Origin: Erythrobacter sp.
GTDB taxonomy: Bacteria > Pseudomonadota > Alphaproteobacteria > Sphingomonadales > Sphingomonadaceae
Assembly (NCBI GenBank): GCA_030148605.1
Contig: JASBTD010000063.1
Location: forward strand, 62,001 to 126,000
Direction of reading: 5' to 3'
DNA length: 64,000 bases
This document shows, one piece after another, positions 24,873 through 32,195 of the stretch. Made by a program: the position numbers and the translations under genes. The stretch's first letter is position 1, and the number at the start of each line of letters is the position of its first letter. Below the pieces are notes generated by a model. It did not search any database. It saw nothing but the letters and a program-made list of their open reading frames with translations, and was not told the origin of the DNA.

Positions 24873-25877
24873 TTACTGACCGGGCTTGGCCGCGAAAGCA
24901 TCGGAGATCGAGCAGGCCGCAGGTCCAAGGATCACGATGAACAGCACCGGCAGGATGAACATGATCAGCGGGACTGTCATGATCGCAGGCAAGCGCGCAG
25001 CCTTCTCTTCCGCGCGCATCATGCGTTCGTTGCGGAACTCGGCTGAGAGCACGCGCAAGGCAGAGGCCAGCGGCGTACCGTAACGCTCGGTCTGGATCAT
25101 AGTGGTCACCACGCCGCGAATTTCCTCAAGGTCGACGCGATAAGCCAGGTTGTCGAAGGCTTTCTTGCGCTCATTGAGGAAGGAAAGCTCGATCGCGGTC
25201 AGGGCAAATTCGTCACCCAGTTCCGGATAAGCGCGGCCCAATTCCTTTGCGACACGGTTGAAGGCGGCGTCGACTGTCAAACCGGCCTCGGCACAGATCA
25301 CCAGCAAGTCGAGTGCATCAGGCAGACCTTTGCGGATTTCCGTGGTGCGCTTGGTGGCCTTGTTCTTGAGGAAGATCTCAGGTCCCTTGTAGCCGGCGAA
25401 TATCACACCGGCCATCGCCATGACCTTCTTCATCTGCCAGTCGGGATAGATCTCGATGACATAGAGCAGGATGAACGCGGTTAGCCCCAGCACGATCGGA
25501 GCAATCATGCGTGCACCGATGATGAAGACAGCCAGTTCCTTGTTGCGGTAACCGGCATGCGCCAGCTTTTGCTGGATGACGGCGATCTGGCTTTCCTGAA
25601 GGACCTTCATGCCCTCCAGCTTCTGCTTCATCTTGTCCGTCGCATCAGTCCTGCGAACGAGGCTGGTGCGCTTCTTGGCGCTTGAAGTGATGATGCCCGC
25701 TTTCAGTTCTTCACGGCGTGCATTCAGCGACTTGACGCGATTTGCCATCGGGTCCTTGACAGTGACCGCAGCATAGATCGCCATCAGCACCGCGAACGCG
25801 GCGATACCGGCCAGAATGGTGCCGACGAGGATAACGTCGAAACCGAGCAGCGTGGGTCCGGAAGGAGTGCCAAACAT
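24873..25877 (-). CDS. tadC: Tad pilus inner-membrane platform protein TadC
   Basis: 334 residues with an N-terminal membrane anchor ('ILVGTILAGIAAFAVLMAIY') and a central GSPII_F domain ('DALDLLVICAEAGLTVDAAF', 'AYPELGDEFALTAIELSFL'). C-terminal helices follow ('LPAIMTVPLIMFILPVLFIV'). TadC pairs with TadB in the cytoplasmic membrane to form the base of the Flp/Tad pilus machine. It is the last gene of the locus, 18 bp after tadB. TadD, E, F and G genes do not follow; the next gene is an unrelated MarR regulator. Confidence 0.92.
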   Translation of the reverse strand: MFGTPSGPTLLGFDVILVGTILAGIAAFAVLMAIYAAVTVKDPMANRVKSLNARREELKAGIITSSAKKRTSLVRRTDATDKMKQKLEGMKVLQESQIAVIQQKLAHAGYRNKELAVFIIGARMIAPIVLGLTAFILLYVIEIYPDWQMKKVMAMAGVIFAGYKGPEIFLKNKATKRTTEIRKGLPDALDLLVICAEAGLTVDAAFNRVAKELGRAYPELGDEFALTAIELSFLNERKKAFDNLAYRVDLEEIRGVVTTMIQTERYGTPLASALRVLSAEFRNERMMRAEEKAARLPAIMTVPLIMFILPVLFIVILGPAACSISDAFAAKPGQ

Positions 25878-25895
25878 GATTTCCTGTTCCCTCGC

Positions 25896-26867
25896 TTAAA
25901 TCTCGAAGCTGACCATTTTGGCCATGATGAAACCGCCAATCGACATCCAGATCATGCCGCCGATGCCGGCCACGATCAGTCGATCATCGGTGAAGAAGCC
26001 GCCGATATAAGACGGATTGATCCACCAGATCATGAAGAAGACGATAAAGGGCAGGGCGCCAACGATATAGGCGGAAGCCTTTGATTCAGAGCTCATCGCG
26101 CGAATCTTGAGCTTCATCTGCGCGCGCTTACGCAGCACATCGGCCAGGTTCGAAAGCGTCTCTGCCAGGTTACCACCTGTCTCGCGCTGGATCGCTAGCG
26201 TGATGGTGAAGAAGTTGAATTCGGGAATGCCGAGCCGGTCAGCAGTTTCCTGCAGCGATTCTTCCATCGTCCGGCCGATCTTGATCCGCTCAACGATGCC
26301 TTTGAATTCCACGCCAACCGGGCCTGGTACTTCCTGGGCAACCACGGCCAAGGTTTCCGTAACCGGCAGACCAGAGCGCAGACCGCGCACGAGAAGCTCG
26401 ATCCCGTCGGGAAATTTCGAATTGAACATGTTGGTGCGCTTCTTGATTGCCCAATTGACCACCAGATGCGGGATCCCGGCACCAATCAGCAAGCCAATGC
26501 CAAGCGACAGCAGCAACGCGCCCGAGCGCAAATATACGATTACTGCAATTGCCAGCGCCAAGCCGATCGAAGCATAGATATATTGCGACAGAGTCCAGCC
26601 TTTGCCGGTGCGGTCAAGCCGCATCTCGAGCGCTTCGATCCGCGATCCGGAACCGGCCACCTTGTGAGCTTTCGGTTTGCGCGCGGCGATCGCCTTCTTG
26701 AGTTGCGATTCAACCTTGGTGTCGGTGCTTTCGGAATGGCGATAACGCACCGCTTCCAGGCGGCGATGACTGGCCTTGGACAGCGATGCTCCGCCAACCA
26801 GCACATAACCACCAGCCAGCACTCCCATCACTACGAGGCTCAGAAGCAGGGTCTCGAAAATGCCCAT
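25896..26867 (-). CDS. tadB: Tad pilus inner-membrane platform protein TadB
   Basis: 323 residues. Two N-terminal membrane segments ('LLLSLVVMGVLAGGYVLVGG', 'YIYASIGLALAIAVIVYL') are followed by a GSPII_F domain ('GIELLVRGLRSGLPVTETLA', 'LAIQRETGGNLAETLSNLAD') and C-terminal helices. It forms the platform with TadC and is normally driven by the CpaF/TadA ATPase. GGCGGGA precedes the ATG. The upstream neighbour is cpaE with only a 97-bp gap, so the expected cpaF gene is missing here. Confidence 0.92.
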   Translation of the reverse strand: MGIFETLLLSLVVMGVLAGGYVLVGGASLSKASHRRLEAVRYRHSESTDTKVESQLKKAIAARKPKAHKVAGSGSRIEALEMRLDRTGKGWTLSQYIYASIGLALAIAVIVYLRSGALLLSLGIGLLIGAGIPHLVVNWAIKKRTNMFNSKFPDGIELLVRGLRSGLPVTETLAVVAQEVPGPVGVEFKGIVERIKIGRTMEESLQETADRLGIPEFNFFTITLAIQRETGGNLAETLSNLADVLRKRAQMKLKIRAMSSESKASAYIVGALPFIVFFMIWWINPSYIGGFFTDDRLIVAGIGGMIWMSIGGFIMAKMVSFEI

Positions 26868-26964
26868 GCGTATGTCCCGCCTTTCCCTATCTTACTTCAC
26901 TGGACTGAAAGCTGGGGGTGGCACGCGCGCTGCCGAATCCAGCGACCCGCGTGCCGTGCCGACA
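26868..26964 (-). other. cpaE-tadB gap where cpaF is expected; possible gene remnant
   Basis: 97 bp. On the minus strand an ATG at 26965-26963 overlaps the cpaE stop as TGATG, the kind of coupled start expected for cpaF. It opens only a frame of about 16 codons. In another frame, 26963-26892 encodes 23 codons ending 'ARVPPPAFSPVK' and a TAA, with coding-like third positions, followed by the tadB ribosome site. This could be the scar of a large deletion that joined the start of cpaF to its tail, but the identity of the tail is not confirmed. Confidence 0.4.
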
Positions 26965-28251
26965 TCATTCTGCCGGTTCCCGCTCTGCTTCGTCCTTGTT
27001 TTTCTTTGCCAGCAGCGACTTGAGGTCGAAATTGCCAAGCAGCGATTTCTTGCTGCCATCGCTCGACTGGAAGTTCTCGTCGCTCGCGCCCATCACGCGT
27101 TCGCCGATCTGCTTGATCGTTGCCGATGCCTTGCTCGAGCGGTTGGCCTGGACAAAAGTCTGGCCAAGCTTGGCGGCATTGGCCGCTGCCTTCGAGTCAT
27201 ACGGAATGACAAAGTCGATCTGGCGTTCGATTGACGCTTCGAAGTCAGCCTTGCTGATTTCAGCGACGCCGTTTTGCACCTTGTTGGCGACGACCATGGT
27301 GTGCGCGTGCGCGGCATTGGTCTTGAGCCAGCTCAGGATGCGGATGGTGTCGCGGGCCGAAGCCAGCGTCATTTCCGACATCAGGATGACAAGGTTCACA
27401 TCCGACAGAACATGCGGGAAGTTGATCAGCATGTTGCGCGGAAGATCAACCACCGTCATTTCGAATGCCTGGCGGAATTCCTCCTCCAGTTGCACGAAAG
27501 CGGCACCATCAGTCATCAGCGGCGAATTGATCGGTGCTTCTGCTGACAGGATCGAAAGATTGTCATTCGCACGGATCATCGCGCGCTCGATGAACAGCCC
27601 GTCGATACGGCTCGGATTGTCAATCGCATCCGTCAGGCCGCGACCAGGCTCAAGGTCGAGCGTGAGCGCGCCGGTGCCGAAATGCACATCGAGGTCGAGC
27701 AGAGCAGTCGGTGACTTGTGCTCTTCGCTGAACAACCACGAAAGCGAGGTTGCGAGCGTAGAGGCACCCACGCCGCCGCGTGTGCCGATCACTGCGGTCG
27801 AGATGTGATGTTTGACTGCTTCACCATCCTGATTTCGCGGGGCAGTGAACACGGCCTGTGCCTGGTTCAGCGCATCACGCAGCTGACCGGCTGACAGCGG
27901 TTTCAGCAGATAGTCGTGGATGCCGCTCGCAAGCAAGTCGCGATAGAGGCGCACGTCATTGACCTGGCCGATGGCGATCACGACTGTGCCGGGTTCGCAA
28001 ACCTCAGCCAGAGCGTTGATGTCATTCAGCGGGTCGCCGCTTTCCGACAGGTCAACCAGCAGGATGTTAGGGCTCGCGCTCACGCTCAGCGACTGGATCG
28101 CATTGCGCAGGCCGCCCTTGTTGCATTTCTCCGGCTGCCAGCCGAGCTCGATCACGACCGGGCGCAAAACGTCCAGTGCGGCATCGTCGCAAATATAGGC
28201 AGCGAACGGATCGCGGTTGCCGGGCATCCCGGATTTCCAAGGCGCGTTCAT
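26965..28251 (-). CDS. cpaE: Pilus assembly ATPase CpaE (MinD/ParA-like)
   Basis: 428 residues. The first ~130 resemble a receiver-like domain ('NILLVDLSESGDPLNDINAL', 'SGIHDYLLKPLSAGQLRDAL'). A MinD/ParA-type domain follows with deviant Walker A 'GTRGGVGASTLATSLSWLF' and 'ALLDLDVHFGTGALTLDLEP'. The C-terminus is charged and rich in Lys and Glu. CpaE (TadZ) places the Tad machine at its site in the cell. GGAGGTAAC lies before the ATG, overlapping the end of cpaD, so translation is coupled. Its stop codon overlaps an ATG (see the cpaE-tadB gap). Confidence 0.92.
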   Translation of the reverse strand: MNAPWKSGMPGNRDPFAAYICDDAALDVLRPVVIELGWQPEKCNKGGLRNAIQSLSVSASPNILLVDLSESGDPLNDINALAEVCEPGTVVIAIGQVNDVRLYRDLLASGIHDYLLKPLSAGQLRDALNQAQAVFTAPRNQDGEAVKHHISTAVIGTRGGVGASTLATSLSWLFSEEHKSPTALLDLDVHFGTGALTLDLEPGRGLTDAIDNPSRIDGLFIERAMIRANDNLSILSAEAPINSPLMTDGAAFVQLEEEFRQAFEMTVVDLPRNMLINFPHVLSDVNLVILMSEMTLASARDTIRILSWLKTNAAHAHTMVVANKVQNGVAEISKADFEASIERQIDFVIPYDSKAAANAAKLGQTFVQANRSSKASATIKQIGERVMGASDENFQSSDGSKKSLLGNFDLKSLLAKKNKDEAEREPAE

Positions 28252-28254
28252 GGC

Positions 28255-28911
28255 TTAGTTACCTCCGGTTGCGGTTTCTGAGAGGCCATCAGCTCCGGTC
28301 GGAGCGGCCTCGCGATAGGATTCGATCGCTTTGGTCGAGCTCATGATCACGGTTTCACCCGTGCCCTTCTGACCTTCGATCAGATCTTCAGGATTTGCGA
28401 TCATCGCAGCCAGGTTGCCGTTGATGGCACAACCGTAACCCGGGCTGGTCGCATTGTTGAAGTTCATGTCGGATTTGGCTGACCAGTCGGGGCAGCCCGG
28501 AACCGAAGCGGTAGAACGAGTCAGGACTACACGGGCATAGCCCGGCTGGACCGAACCGCTTGTTACAGGCGCGCCGTTTTCGACCAGAATGCCGCGGCGG
28601 CCCGCCAGGTCAGCGACAGCGTCAAGCGTTGCTTCGCTGGCCAGCGGATCGTCAATCGATACACGGTCACCATAACCCAGTTCCATTGCATCGAACCAAC
28701 CGTCCAGACGCTGCTGCTCGGAAATGGTCAGACCGCTTTGGCTGGTGCGCACGTCGAACGTATAGCTAGTGCGTTCAACCACCGGCTGTTTGACGCTGTA
28801 GAGGCTCTTGTTCGTAGCCATGCCACCGCAGGCACTTACAGCCATGCCAAGCGAGAGGGCGAGGGCCATTGCAGGCGCCTTGGCCAGCTTGCTGTGTTTC
28901 GCAAAGGGCAT
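28255..28911 (-). CDS. cpaD: Pilus assembly lipoprotein CpaD
   Basis: 218 residues from the ATG at 28909-28911; a GTG three codons earlier is too close to the AAAGG site. The N-terminus is a lipoprotein signal with lipobox 'MAVSACGG', so it should be an outer-membrane lipoprotein. The rest matches the CpaD family ('GDRVSIDDPLASEATL', 'VPGCPDWSAKSDMNFNNATS', with two Cys typical of the family, 'GYGCAINGNLAAMIANPEDL'). CpaD helps the CpaC secretin in the outer membrane. It lies between cpaC and cpaE. Confidence 0.9.
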   Translation of the reverse strand: MPFAKHSKLAKAPAMALALSLGMAVSACGGMATNKSLYSVKQPVVERTSYTFDVRTSQSGLTISEQQRLDGWFDAMELGYGDRVSIDDPLASEATLDAVADLAGRRGILVENGAPVTSGSVQPGYARVVLTRSTASVPGCPDWSAKSDMNFNNATSPGYGCAINGNLAAMIANPEDLIEGQKGTGETVIMSSTKAIESYREAAPTGADGLSETATGGN

Positions 28912-28929
28912 TGTTCTCACCTTTCCCGA

Positions 28930-30519
28930 TTAGAAGCTGAAACCAGGGGTCGCAGCTTCAGCGCGGCGATCCGTCTTGGTTTCTTCGTTTTCAGTTTGAC
29001 GCGGTGCGACTGCATCCGGCGTAATCGAACCGACGCTGGGCGGCGGTACCTGCTTGTTGGTCGCAGACGGACCAGGGCGAGCTTCGCCGCTCACGCCGCC
29101 ATTTTCGCGATAGCCCAGGAACTGCTGCAATTCGCTCGATGCACGGAAGCCGTCGGTCGGCAGCTTGATGTCGCTGTCGTTGACCGGCTTCACCAGATAC
29201 GGCGTCACCACGATCACCAGTTCGGTTTCGCCCTTGCGGAACGAACGCGAACGGAACAGATTGCCCAGGATCGGAAGGTCGCCAACACCGGGAGCCTTGT
29301 CGATCGTATTCTGCGCATTGTTATTCATCAGGCCGGCAATCATGAAGCTCTGGCCAGAACCCAGTTCCACCGTCGTTTACGCGCGGCGGATCGTAAGTGC
29401 CGGGATCTGAAAGCCGTTGAGCGTCACTGCACCCTGACTCGAAAGTTCGGAAACTTCCGGGCGGACGCGGATCGAAATCCGGCCATTGGCCAGAACAGTC
29501 GGCGTATAAGACAAGCTTACGCCAAATTTACGATATTCGATCGCGGTGGCGCCGAGGCCCTGACTGGTCGGGATCGGGAATTCGCCACCGGCAAGGAAAT
29601 CAGCGGTTTCGCCTGAAAGCGCGGTCAGGTTCGGTTCTGACAGTGTGGTCACCAAACCATCGCGTTCTGCGAGATCGAGTGCACCGGCCAGATCCAGGCC
29701 TAGAAATTTGCCAAAGCCCGAAAGCGTCGTGCCCGGCGAATTCTGAGTTACCAGCGAGGTTCCGTCGCTGGCTTCAGTGCCGCCAGTGAACACTCCACCA
29801 CCGACATTCCACTGCGGCAGGAAGCCTTCACGACCTGTCGCAACGCCGAAACGGAAACCGTCAGTGCCGTCGAAACTGTTGAGATTGCCGCCAAGCGAAC
29901 GCACCAGCGAACGGCTGACTTCGGCAAAGCGCACGCGCAGATTGACCTGCAGCGGTGTTGCCATCTTGAAGCGGCTGATCACATTGGTGTCATCGCCAAC
30001 GAAAGCCTGAACCAGACGTTCAGCCTCGGCAGCATCTTCAGGCGCTTTCACCGTGCCTGTAAGCAGCACAGTGTTGGTGCCCATCGTTGCCACGCCGATC
30101 TTCGCTTCCGGCATGGCCAGAGCCAGCATCTGATCGACGCTGTCGATGTTCGAGCCGACGCGGACATTGGCAGACCAGATCACGTCACCGCGTGAATTGC
30201 TGGCATAGATTGTTGTCTCGCCACCAGCCTTGCCAAAGACATAGAGCTGGCGTTGCGACTTGACCTGAACATCAGCCACGGCATCATTGGCGATGAAAAC
30301 ATCGGCCATGGCGCCTGGGATGGTGATCAGTTCGCCGCGACCGATCGAGATGACAATGTCATCCGCCGGGCTTGTGACAGACTGCGCAGTCGCAGTTGTC
30401 ATCGGCACGCTTGCGAGCGGCGCAATGGCCAGGCTGGCAAGCAGCATTTTGGCAGTCAGGCGGCGTTTCATGGTCTTGCCCCTCGGTTGAATCGAATGTG
30501 TGAGTTTCTTGCTGGTCAT
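28930..30519 (-). pseudogene. cpaC: Tad secretin gene cpaC interrupted by an in-frame stop
   Basis: Two open pieces in the same frame make one CpaC. Part one (30519-29380, 380 residues) has a signal peptide, the pilus/secretin N-domain ('DIVISIGRGELITIPGAMAD'), a BON-like region and the start of the secretin domain, ending 'IPALTIRRA'. Then comes TAA at 29379-29377. Part two goes on at once with Thr-Thr-Val-'ELGSGQSFMIAGLMNNNAQN' and the rest of the secretin and a C-terminal tail. The family has Glu at the stop, and GAA to TAA is a single-base change. The GTG at 29370 could in theory restart translation. I chose the ATG at 30519 because AGGGGA precedes it. A sequencing error is possible. Confidence 0.8.
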
Positions 30520-30530
30520 CGTGTGTCCCC

Positions 30531-31616
30531 TCACTTGATCAGCACAGCGCCAGCGACAGGCACAGTGCGACCGGCATCGCCGATTGCCTCGGCCTGCTGG
30601 CTGACCAGCGCGTTGCCTGCGCGGCCAACGGGAACAGCAGTTGTCTGCTTGCCGCGAGTGACACGGACGGTCGGGCCTGCATTGGCTGCAGCGTAGACCG
30701 GTGCTCCGCCGCCTGATGTTGCCGAACCGCCTCCACCATTTGTGGCTGGCATCGAACGGCGCTGGAAGCGTGACACGTCACCGCCTGTGCTGAAGGTTGC
30801 GCCCTTGTCGATCGGGCGACCCATTGCGCTACGGATCAGGTTTTCTTCTTCCTCAGGCGTCGCGTCATCAGGAATTACGACATCGCCCGAGGCAATCGCA
30901 CGCTCAAGTTCAACCTGGTTGTCAGCGATCGAACGCAGCGCCAGGCTGAGCGTGCCGATCGTCTGTGCAACAGCGACCTTCTCCGCAATCTTCGGCGTCA
31001 CTTCGAGAGTGACGGTGCGGAAAGCGCGGACGACTGTCTTGCCATCTTCGGTAGTGGTCTGCTCGGTCGACTGGTCAGTCGCAAGCACACGAAGATTACG
31101 AAGCACGGTTTCCGCAGCACGTAGTGACGGGCCATCGTCACCATTGACGGTTTGCGTCAATACCAGATCAACGCGGTCACCCGGGAAGACAAATCCTGCA
31201 ACGCCGGTCTTGGCTGACACTGGAACCGTGACAGTGCGCATGCCCGGGCCAAGCGCCGCAGCCAGGAAGCCGCGATCACCAGGGCTGACAAGCGAGCCCT
31301 GCGTCACTGGTTCGCCAGCCGTGATCGGGTGGCGCACAACTGTGCCGAGCAACTTGTTGATGTCTGATTCGCCATCAATGAAGTAGGCGTCCTGCACCAG
31401 CTCTTCCGGCCATTGCTGGAAGCTCATCGCATCAGCGGTGATGATAGTGCCTGTCGGCAGCGCGCGCTGAGCCACAAGAACCTTTGGGCCTTGCGGGACC
31501 GGTGCGGCCTCCACTTCCGGTGCCGGGCTACCGGCCAACATGCTCCGAGCTGCCAAGGCTGTGCCGATCGCGATGACCAGCGCTCCAAGCAGCAATACCA
31601 GCTTCTTCCTATCCAT
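30531..31616 (-). CDS. cpaB: Flp pilus assembly protein CpaB (RcpC-like)
   Basis: 361 residues with an N-terminal anchor ('LVLLLGALVIAIGTALAARS'), an SAF domain ('KVLVAQRALPTGTIITADAM', 'VVRHPITAGEPVTQGSLVSP') and the RcpC-type region ('MRTVTVPVSAKTGVAGFVFP', 'GDRVDLVLTQTVNG'). CpaB is a periplasmic partner of the Tad secretin. Its stop overlaps an alternative GTG of cpaC, consistent with one operon, cpaA-B-C-D-E-tadB-tadC. Confidence 0.92.
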   Translation of the reverse strand: MDRKKLVLLLGALVIAIGTALAARSMLAGSPAPEVEAAPVPQGPKVLVAQRALPTGTIITADAMSFQQWPEELVQDAYFIDGESDINKLLGTVVRHPITAGEPVTQGSLVSPGDRGFLAAALGPGMRTVTVPVSAKTGVAGFVFPGDRVDLVLTQTVNGDDGPSLRAAETVLRNLRVLATDQSTEQTTTEDGKTVVRAFRTVTLEVTPKIAEKVAVAQTIGTLSLALRSIADNQVELERAIASGDVVIPDDATPEEEENLIRSAMGRPIDKGATFSTGGDVSRFQRRSMPATNGGGGSATSGGGAPVYAAANAGPTVRVTRGKQTTAVPVGRAGNALVSQQAEAIGDAGRTVPVAGAVLIK

Positions 31617-31703
31617 GGCTATTCTAGCCCCCTAATTCGGCCCAGTTAATTCTGCGGGCGGGTATGGTTGTCGTCTCTAAATCCAGACTGGTTAAAATCA
31701 GGT

Positions 31704-32195
31704 TCATCCCAATCCCGCCGATTGACCGGCAGTGGGTAAGTAATGCGTTCCAAGGGCCCAAAGCCCTCCGAACGCGATGGCAACACCATAAGGCACGGCG
31801 ATGCGATCACGCTGGCGGCGCATGATGTGCCACATGCCCATGACGATGGTCAGGACACCGCCTGCCAGTGCCATCACGATCAGCAGTTTTAGAAACAGTG
31901 TCGGCTCGATCCAAAGCGCAAGCGCAGTCAGAAGTTTGACATCGCCTCCACCCATCATCTTGAGCGCGAACAATCCGGCAAAGACAGCAAATGCAGCCAC
32001 GGCGATGCCGAGTTGCAGGGCAACTCCCGGCCAAAGCGACAGACCGCTTGACCACCAGAACAGCGGTGCGGCAAGCGCGATACCGGCGTTGAGCCAGTTA
32101 TCGATCTGGCGGCGGCGCATGTCGGTAATGGCTGCAAACAGCAGTGCAATTGCCAACCCGGCAAGCAGTCCGTAGTGGAGATATTCGCTCAGCAT
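31704..32195 (-). CDS. cpaA: Prepilin peptidase CpaA/TadV
   Basis: 163 residues, a small A24-type aspartic membrane peptidase with about five helices. The two catalytic Asp are D25 in 'AAITDMRRRQIDNWL' and D85 in 'MMGGGDVKLL', as in TadV/CpaA. It lacks the N-terminal methylase domain of large PilD enzymes. It processes Flp prepilins. First gene of the Tad operon; no flp pilin gene lies upstream, where a plus-strand hydrolase begins 89 bp away. Confidence 0.9.
   Translation of the reverse strand: MLSEYLHYGLLAGLAIALLFAAITDMRRRQIDNWLNAGIALAAPLFWWSSGLSLWPGVALQLGIAVAAFAVFAGLFALKMMGGGDVKLLTALALWIEPTLFLKLLIVMALAGGVLTIVMGMWHIMRRQRDRIAVPYGVAIAFGGLWALGTHYLPTAGQSAGLG

Follow-up and report, generated by a model that had tools for sequence, protein, structure and literature searches.

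Tad pili are described in the available passages of PMC12019362 as pili whose one ATPase both extends and retracts them, and bifunctionality across Tad systems is stated to be unknown in those of PMC11300603. The gene encoding this motor, cpaF, is commonly located between cpaE and tadB, an order which, according to the available part of PMC6668835, is not required, with scattered loci being allowed for. The closest described motor is CpaF of C. crescentus (PDB 9e24, 8rkd, 8rjf; PMC12019362, PMC11300603), which belongs to the same family as the ATPase treated here, shares its motifs, aligns with it over residues 22-510 and, as far as the available passages of both papers go, has the same role at the TadB-TadC (CpaG-CpaH) platform that is predicted here for a CpaF encoded away from its pilus genes (in the following, unlinked CpaF).

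The stretch of DNA analysed here (the window, 64,000 nucleotides from Erythrobacter sp.) carries a Tad block which differs from these systems in several respects. In contrast to C. crescentus CpaF, the presumed motor is encoded off the Tad block and belongs to a second CpaF clade. While scattered Tad loci have been reported before (Denise et al. 2019, PMC6668835, as judged from the available part), separation of the motor gene is here fixed across a large clade and would have arisen by loss of one of two CpaF forms. Moreover, sister lineages hold both of these forms, as opposed to the single bifunctional ATPase with which the available passages of PMC12019362 credit Tad systems.

The Tad block and its missing motor gene

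The region in question is the core block of a Tad (type IVc) pilus of an erythrobacter-like alphaproteobacterium, with the gene order cpaA-cpaB-cpaC-cpaD-cpaE-tadB-tadC and the following features:

24873-32195, minus strand: Tad block as a whole
31704..32195, minus strand: cpaA-like prepilin peptidase that opens the block; its name is based on position, with homologues in the same place in relatives; no match in an NCBIfam search
30531..31616, minus strand: cpaB (TIGR03177, 224.2 bits against a cut-off of 71)
28930..30534, minus strand: cpaC secretin with an in-frame stop inside
29377..29379, minus strand: the in-frame TAA within the cpaC secretin domain, located in an alignment of 95 rows
28255..28920, minus strand: cpaD lipoprotein (TIGR02522, 55.1 bits, under the cut-off of 94.45)
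26965..28251, minus strand: cpaE (TadZ-like), 428 aa, directly upstream of the gap, assigned by homology and place, its NCBIfam matches being weak and all below cut-off
26868..26964, minus strand: cpaE-tadB intergenic gap, 97 bp, the site of cpaF in other families of the order
25896..26867, minus strand: tadB platform protein, 323 aa, T2SSF domain
24873..25877, minus strand: tadC platform protein, 334 aa, T2SSF domain

Hence, a TadB-TadC pair, CpaB, the secretin CpaC (with its in-frame stop) and CpaE stand together in one block, and the motor gene expected between cpaE and tadB is absent. As the preliminary description of this DNA had correctly stated, exactly 97 bp without any ATPase gene are found there, and a genome-wide PF00437 search gave no CpaF match within the block. 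The absence is real, because in other families of the order all 21 loci with cpaE and tadB on one stretch carry cpaF in an interval of 1686-1845 bp. Across 94 rows (one locus entered twice), cpaE-tadB distances are bimodal, falling between -22 and 151 bp in 67 rows and between 1686 and 1889 bp in the other 27; nine further loci have distances of 1681-1917 bp. Within the genus, none of the 30 loci examined carries cpaF in the gap, which measures 30-151 bp and is mostly dissimilar in sequence; this sample includes the window's own locus, and six more of the 36 same-genus genomes with window-type CpaE lie outside it.

The in-frame stop in cpaC raises the question whether the system works at all in this strain. 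At the affected codon, 94 of the 95 aligned rows (genome G113 counted twice) have a sense codon, 88 of them for Glu and six for another residue, and one has a stop; cpaC copies are uninterrupted in relatives, and cpaC is the sole secretin (PF00263) match in the assembly. The stop may therefore break the Tad system of this strain, and that the system is already non-functional, whatever its motor, is a serious possibility, if somewhat short of an even chance. Against this it has to be considered that a single base in a single assembly may reflect a sequencing or assembly error, and that all six remaining genes of the block are open. In any case, the stop does not explain the missing cpaF, since relatives with a sense codon at this position also lack it.

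A CpaF gene outside the block

The preliminary description had called for a genome-wide search for a CpaF/TadA ATPase, and this search did yield an open CpaF gene. The assembly (2.6 Mb, 66 contigs, 97.8% complete) encodes three PF00437 ATPases: contig C5 carries the unlinked CpaF, contig C18 a CpaF that forms part of a second Tad locus, and contig C50 a VirB11. The unlinked gene is open, encodes 512 aa and stands alone at C5:54233-55768. Its nearest PDB structures are 9e24 (E 1.9e-144) as well as 8rkd and 8rjf (both 1.1e-142), followed by 2oap (3.1e-40). The protein matches PF00437, the type II/IV secretion ATPase family, with E 8.2e-60 and 202.8 bits (cut-off 24.9). Its best NCBIfam match, TIGR03819, reaches 331.1 bits and remains under the curated cut-off of 373.15; since the C18 CpaF, although located inside a Tad locus, misses this cut-off too (354.0 bits), it was not treated as defining.

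The protein carries a Walker A motif (GGTGSGKTT), a Walker B motif (PDRIILGEIR) and a His-box (GHDGSMCTLHAN), the motif strings not being taken from a database. In a strict scan, 179 of 203 sequences passed; Walker A was intact in each of the 24 that did not, which lacked the strict string for Walker B or for the His-box. A further scan with looser strings covered overlapping sets of 138 close relatives, 26 tree-set sequences, eight other unlinked genes and 21 in-locus rows; here, the central-loop string was not found in four of the eight unlinked genes of other families and in one of the 21 in-locus rows. Walker B and His-box occur in all 138 close relatives, 137 of which also have EGxG at the position of EGSG in C. 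crescentus CpaF; according to the available passages of PMC11300603, these residues lie on the surface facing CpaG/CpaH. Compared with 29 same-genus loci, unlinked CpaF shows a mean identity of 88.9%, versus 84.8% for CpaE and 76.3% for TadB, and is more conserved than these presumed partners.

On C5, the gene is flanked by an EamA transporter gene on one side and, on the other, by a hypothetical gene next to a glmS-like one (names taken from Pfam domains), and the surrounding 18 kb gave no match to the window's Tad genes. This lack of Tad neighbours counts against the proposed role, as does the variation of the neighbourhood between lineages: of the 80 nearest named loci (several being truncated at a contig end), 43 have a glmS-like gene near unlinked cpaF and 51 an EamA-type match of some kind. 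One fixed site was considered and rejected, as more distant family genomes show other neighbours. Relatives of unlinked CpaF in other families of the order (L242-L246), some of them long-branched, likewise stand beside unrelated genes; the neighbours there include S9, M1 and M24 peptidases, a hydantoinase, a TonB receptor and a biotin synthase-like gene, and no second Tad block was seen within the 5-11 kb around them. In several lineages, EAL or GGDEF (c-di-GMP) genes occur a few kb from unlinked cpaF (L004 2382-4736, L226 2881-4767, L314 3520-4791). The distance between unlinked cpaF and cpaE is rather constant within the genus, at 147-232 kb in 15 of the 18 genomes with both genes on one contig.

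Co-occurrence with the window-type block

Window-type CpaE and unlinked CpaF are present together in all 31 genomes of the genus (n = 37) that are at least 90% complete, in a few fragmented ones only in pieces; three of the six less complete genomes are without unlinked CpaF and one is without CpaE. Across a family sample of 59 genomes, unlinked CpaF (identity at least 71%) was found in 48, including one gene split by a frameshift and one cut by a contig end. All 48 also encode window-type CpaE (identity at least 53%), so that unlinked CpaF without CpaE does not occur in the sample. The sole genome with CpaE and no unlinked CpaF (G106) has cpaF in its block, and ten genomes have neither gene, five of which (G070, G085, G074, G076, G117) possess other Tad types with their own CpaF. 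This association gives a Fisher p of 1.8e-10, a value uncorrected for kinship. One case counts against a takeover by the unlinked form: in G113 (L236 8109-9618), unlinked cpaF is split by the frameshift although CpaE and the Tad block are present. By name, the nearest carriers of unlinked CpaF among the best 80 of 572 confirmed stretches belong to Altererythrobacter, Erythrobacter, Qipengyuania, Tsuneonella, Croceibacterium, other erythrobacters and Novosphingobium.

History of the two CpaF forms

In the final CpaF tree, a branch with 100/100 support separates the in-locus from the unlinked forms, and the unlinked side includes copies from other families. The first CpaF tree gave the same split, with the second-locus CpaFs on the in-locus side. 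As placed in these trees, unlinked CpaF would be a separate, old paralog (or xenolog) and not a relocated copy; a horizontal origin is possible, because the trees are midpoint-rooted and reach only the order. The final CpaE+TadB tree (23 rows without cpaF, 23 with, midpoint root) unites the loci lacking cpaF in one clade (100/100) within a grade of family genomes that keep it, and a quick tree of the same proteins agrees (support 97). For the quick tree, nine same-genus loci out of the 30 were used; L193, which is the same locus as L239, was not included. The final trees leave out the divergent blocks L205, L237, L238, L310 and L312 together with other redundant rows. The final CpaF tree additionally omits the unlinked copies L243-L246, some of which have long branches. 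L205, L237 and L238 are included in the first trees, and L243-L246 in the first CpaF tree. The unlinked-CpaF and CpaE+TadB trees disagree in places, with G065 grouping with G080 in the first CpaF tree and the final tree giving no resolution at this point; in G080, tadB lies off the contig and the cpaE-tadB gap is thus not visible.

Genomes that hold both forms speak to the order of events. A strong in-locus-type CpaF match (E <=1e-185) was obtained in 14 of 397 family genomes, ten of which also have unlinked CpaF; the 383 without a match at this level include genomes without this Tad block. Where a window-type block keeps cpaF, nine of 11 family genomes hold unlinked CpaF, too. The in-locus-type CpaF of G070, G276 and G295 sits in a divergent Tad block, and G085, which has a divergent block with cpaF in place, is absent from the list of 14. 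Since genomes with both forms exist and the clade lacking cpaF is nested, the unlinked form should be older than the in-locus loss, and a single loss of in-locus cpaF would be enough to account for the distribution. An ancestor within the family would accordingly have possessed both CpaF forms, with one gene as part of the Tad block and the other standing apart from it. A single deletion of the in-block gene would then have occurred in the ancestor shared by erythrobacters, Novosphingobium and allied lineages, leaving unlinked CpaF as the only motor of TadB-TadC, supplied in trans. The motor ATPase of the window's block is most likely the unlinked CpaF on C5, which is predicted, from co-occurrence, phylogeny, motifs and conservation, to bind TadB-TadC and to drive both extension and retraction. 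Overall, an unlinked paralog appears to have replaced the Tad motor gene throughout a clade.

The same trees bear on a simple relocation, in which the original cpaF itself left the block. Within the same genomes, a single unlinked CpaF does take the place of a single in-locus one, as relocation would predict, and unlinked CpaF would then be expected to nest inside the family's in-locus clade. The opposite was found: the fully supported branch parts both forms and groups the unlinked copies from other families with the unlinked form, and most family genomes with in-locus-type CpaF hold both forms at once. Relocation is thus improbable and was rejected.

Second Tad locus and pilin genes

Contig C18 carries a second, divergent Tad locus which begins at the contig edge (L005 1-7365) and comprises CpaE-, CpaF-, TadB- and TadC-like as well as TadE-type genes. 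No second secretin (PF00263) was found in the assembly. As the genome does encode this additional CpaF, it could in principle be the motor of the window's platform. However, the C18 locus already has CpaE-, TadB- and TadC-like genes of its own, and 11 of the 59 family genomes are listed with a C18-type CpaF (44-51% identity to the unlinked form), compared to 49 with window-type CpaE, which makes this assignment very improbable.

Flp pilin genes are present in the genome (two PF04964 matches on C34), as are TadE-type pseudopilins (five PF07811 matches on C54 and C18), and neither domain was matched on C21, the window's contig. With the two Flp pilin matches and a TadE-type match at C34:69629-70060 and C54:3913-4041, pilin and pseudopilin genes are scattered like that of the motor.

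Content of the cpaE-tadB gap

The preliminary description had compared the gap to a deletion scar of cpaF and held that the platform could not work unless cpaF lay elsewhere. A recent deletion in this strain, with a scar and a dead platform as its result, would fit the missing gene, a TGATG at the cpaE stop (interpreted as a lost cpaF start) and a 23-codon open frame ending VPPPAFSPVK before tadB. The TGATG is real and carries no weight, because among 30 same-genus loci only the window's own has it, and overall it occurs in seven of 64. The short frame can be read in the gap, but its resemblance to CpaF does not exceed that of shuffled sequence: with the gap translated in three frames and compared to nine in-locus CpaF proteins, the best score was 34 against a shuffled mean of 33.0 and was matched by 37 of 100 shuffles, and the in-locus CpaF C-termini inspected end like GLGRALMECM. 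The gap as a scar of cpaF was therefore rejected. Furthermore, all 30 same-genus loci examined share the arrangement, the genome has an open CpaF gene on another contig, and there are relatives that combine this spacing with a cpaF at another site, which the preliminary description itself had named as counter-evidence. A recent strain-specific deletion is hence extremely improbable. What holds of the original idea is a true loss in the lineage, visible as one clade without cpaF nested among cpaF-bearing loci; it is not particular to this genome.

Two elements can be described within the gap:

26920..26955, minus strand: hairpin predicted to form past the cpaE stop; its stem has 8+2+4 pairs, GGCACGCG...CGCGTGCC
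26868..26887, minus strand: purine-rich, ribosome-binding-like stretch before tadB, AAAGGCGGGA

In a comparison by eye, the purine-rich stretch seems to be the part of the gap common to near relatives. For the upstream part, the observed score was reached by one of 100 shuffles against L039, by 8 (L041), 13 (L037) and 13 (L042), and by 47 (L040) and 54 (L038), so that the gap is mostly unconserved with respect to these six near relatives. The whole window gap folds with -38.2 kcal/mol (z -1.69). Among same-genus gaps of at least 60 nt (n = 29), the mean folding z is -2.09, with 21 below -1.5; among all gaps of this size (n = 47), 30 fall below -1.5, and the gap of near relative L037 has a z of +0.38. 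In many loci of the genus, a hairpin is predicted just past the cpaE stop, though the sequence is mostly unconserved, and a role in tuning tadB expression or mRNA stability would be plausible.

Finally, an assembly collapse that removed cpaF from the block, conceivable for an assembly in 66 contigs, was rejected as extremely improbable, since comparable gaps of 125, 30, 150 and 100 bp are present in G003, G012, G021 and G026, respectively, all of them listed as one-contig genomes.

A possible two-motor stage

Verified in-locus-type and unlinked CpaF occur together in 17 genomes; G048, whose in-locus CpaF is unverified, was left out of this count. A PF00482 check covered 14 of them, that is, all except G201, G276 and G288. 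Exactly one TadB-TadC pair was found in each; the remaining PF00482 matches fall twice within one and the same frame (405-461 aa), a pattern like that of GspF, with a short extra fragment in G038 and a tadB cut by the contig end in G110. No other Tad platform for unlinked CpaF was found by this check in the 14 genomes. In its simplest reading, this suggests two motors at one platform as a stage before the takeover. Alternatively, unlinked CpaF might serve another machine in these genomes; several of their unlinked copies are on long branches in the first CpaF tree.

Two related ATPases beside one platform are also known from type IVa pili with PilB and PilT (available passages of PMC12019362), the difference being that both ATPases are CpaF-type here. 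If both CpaF forms act on the same TadB-TadC, as PilT does beside PilB, a two-motor Tad pilus of sphingomonads can tentatively be imagined, in which unlinked CpaF began as a specialised second motor, e.g. for retraction or a regulated mode, and later became the sole motor in erythrobacters and Novosphingobium. We regard this extension as possible, with the chances rather against it.

Implications

The Tad machine itself is known; what seems to be new is the clade-wide swap of its motor gene for an unlinked paralog. No earlier report of this arrangement was found by title or abstract opening, which does not show that none exists. For genome annotation, the Tad block of erythrobacters and Novosphingobium can be without cpaF while a CpaF exists elsewhere in the genome. 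Surveys requiring one locus might score such Tad systems as incomplete, because cpaF lies outside the block. With a clade whose motor has seemingly been swapped and relatives which hold both forms, it can now be asked whether two CpaF proteins divide extension and retraction between them.
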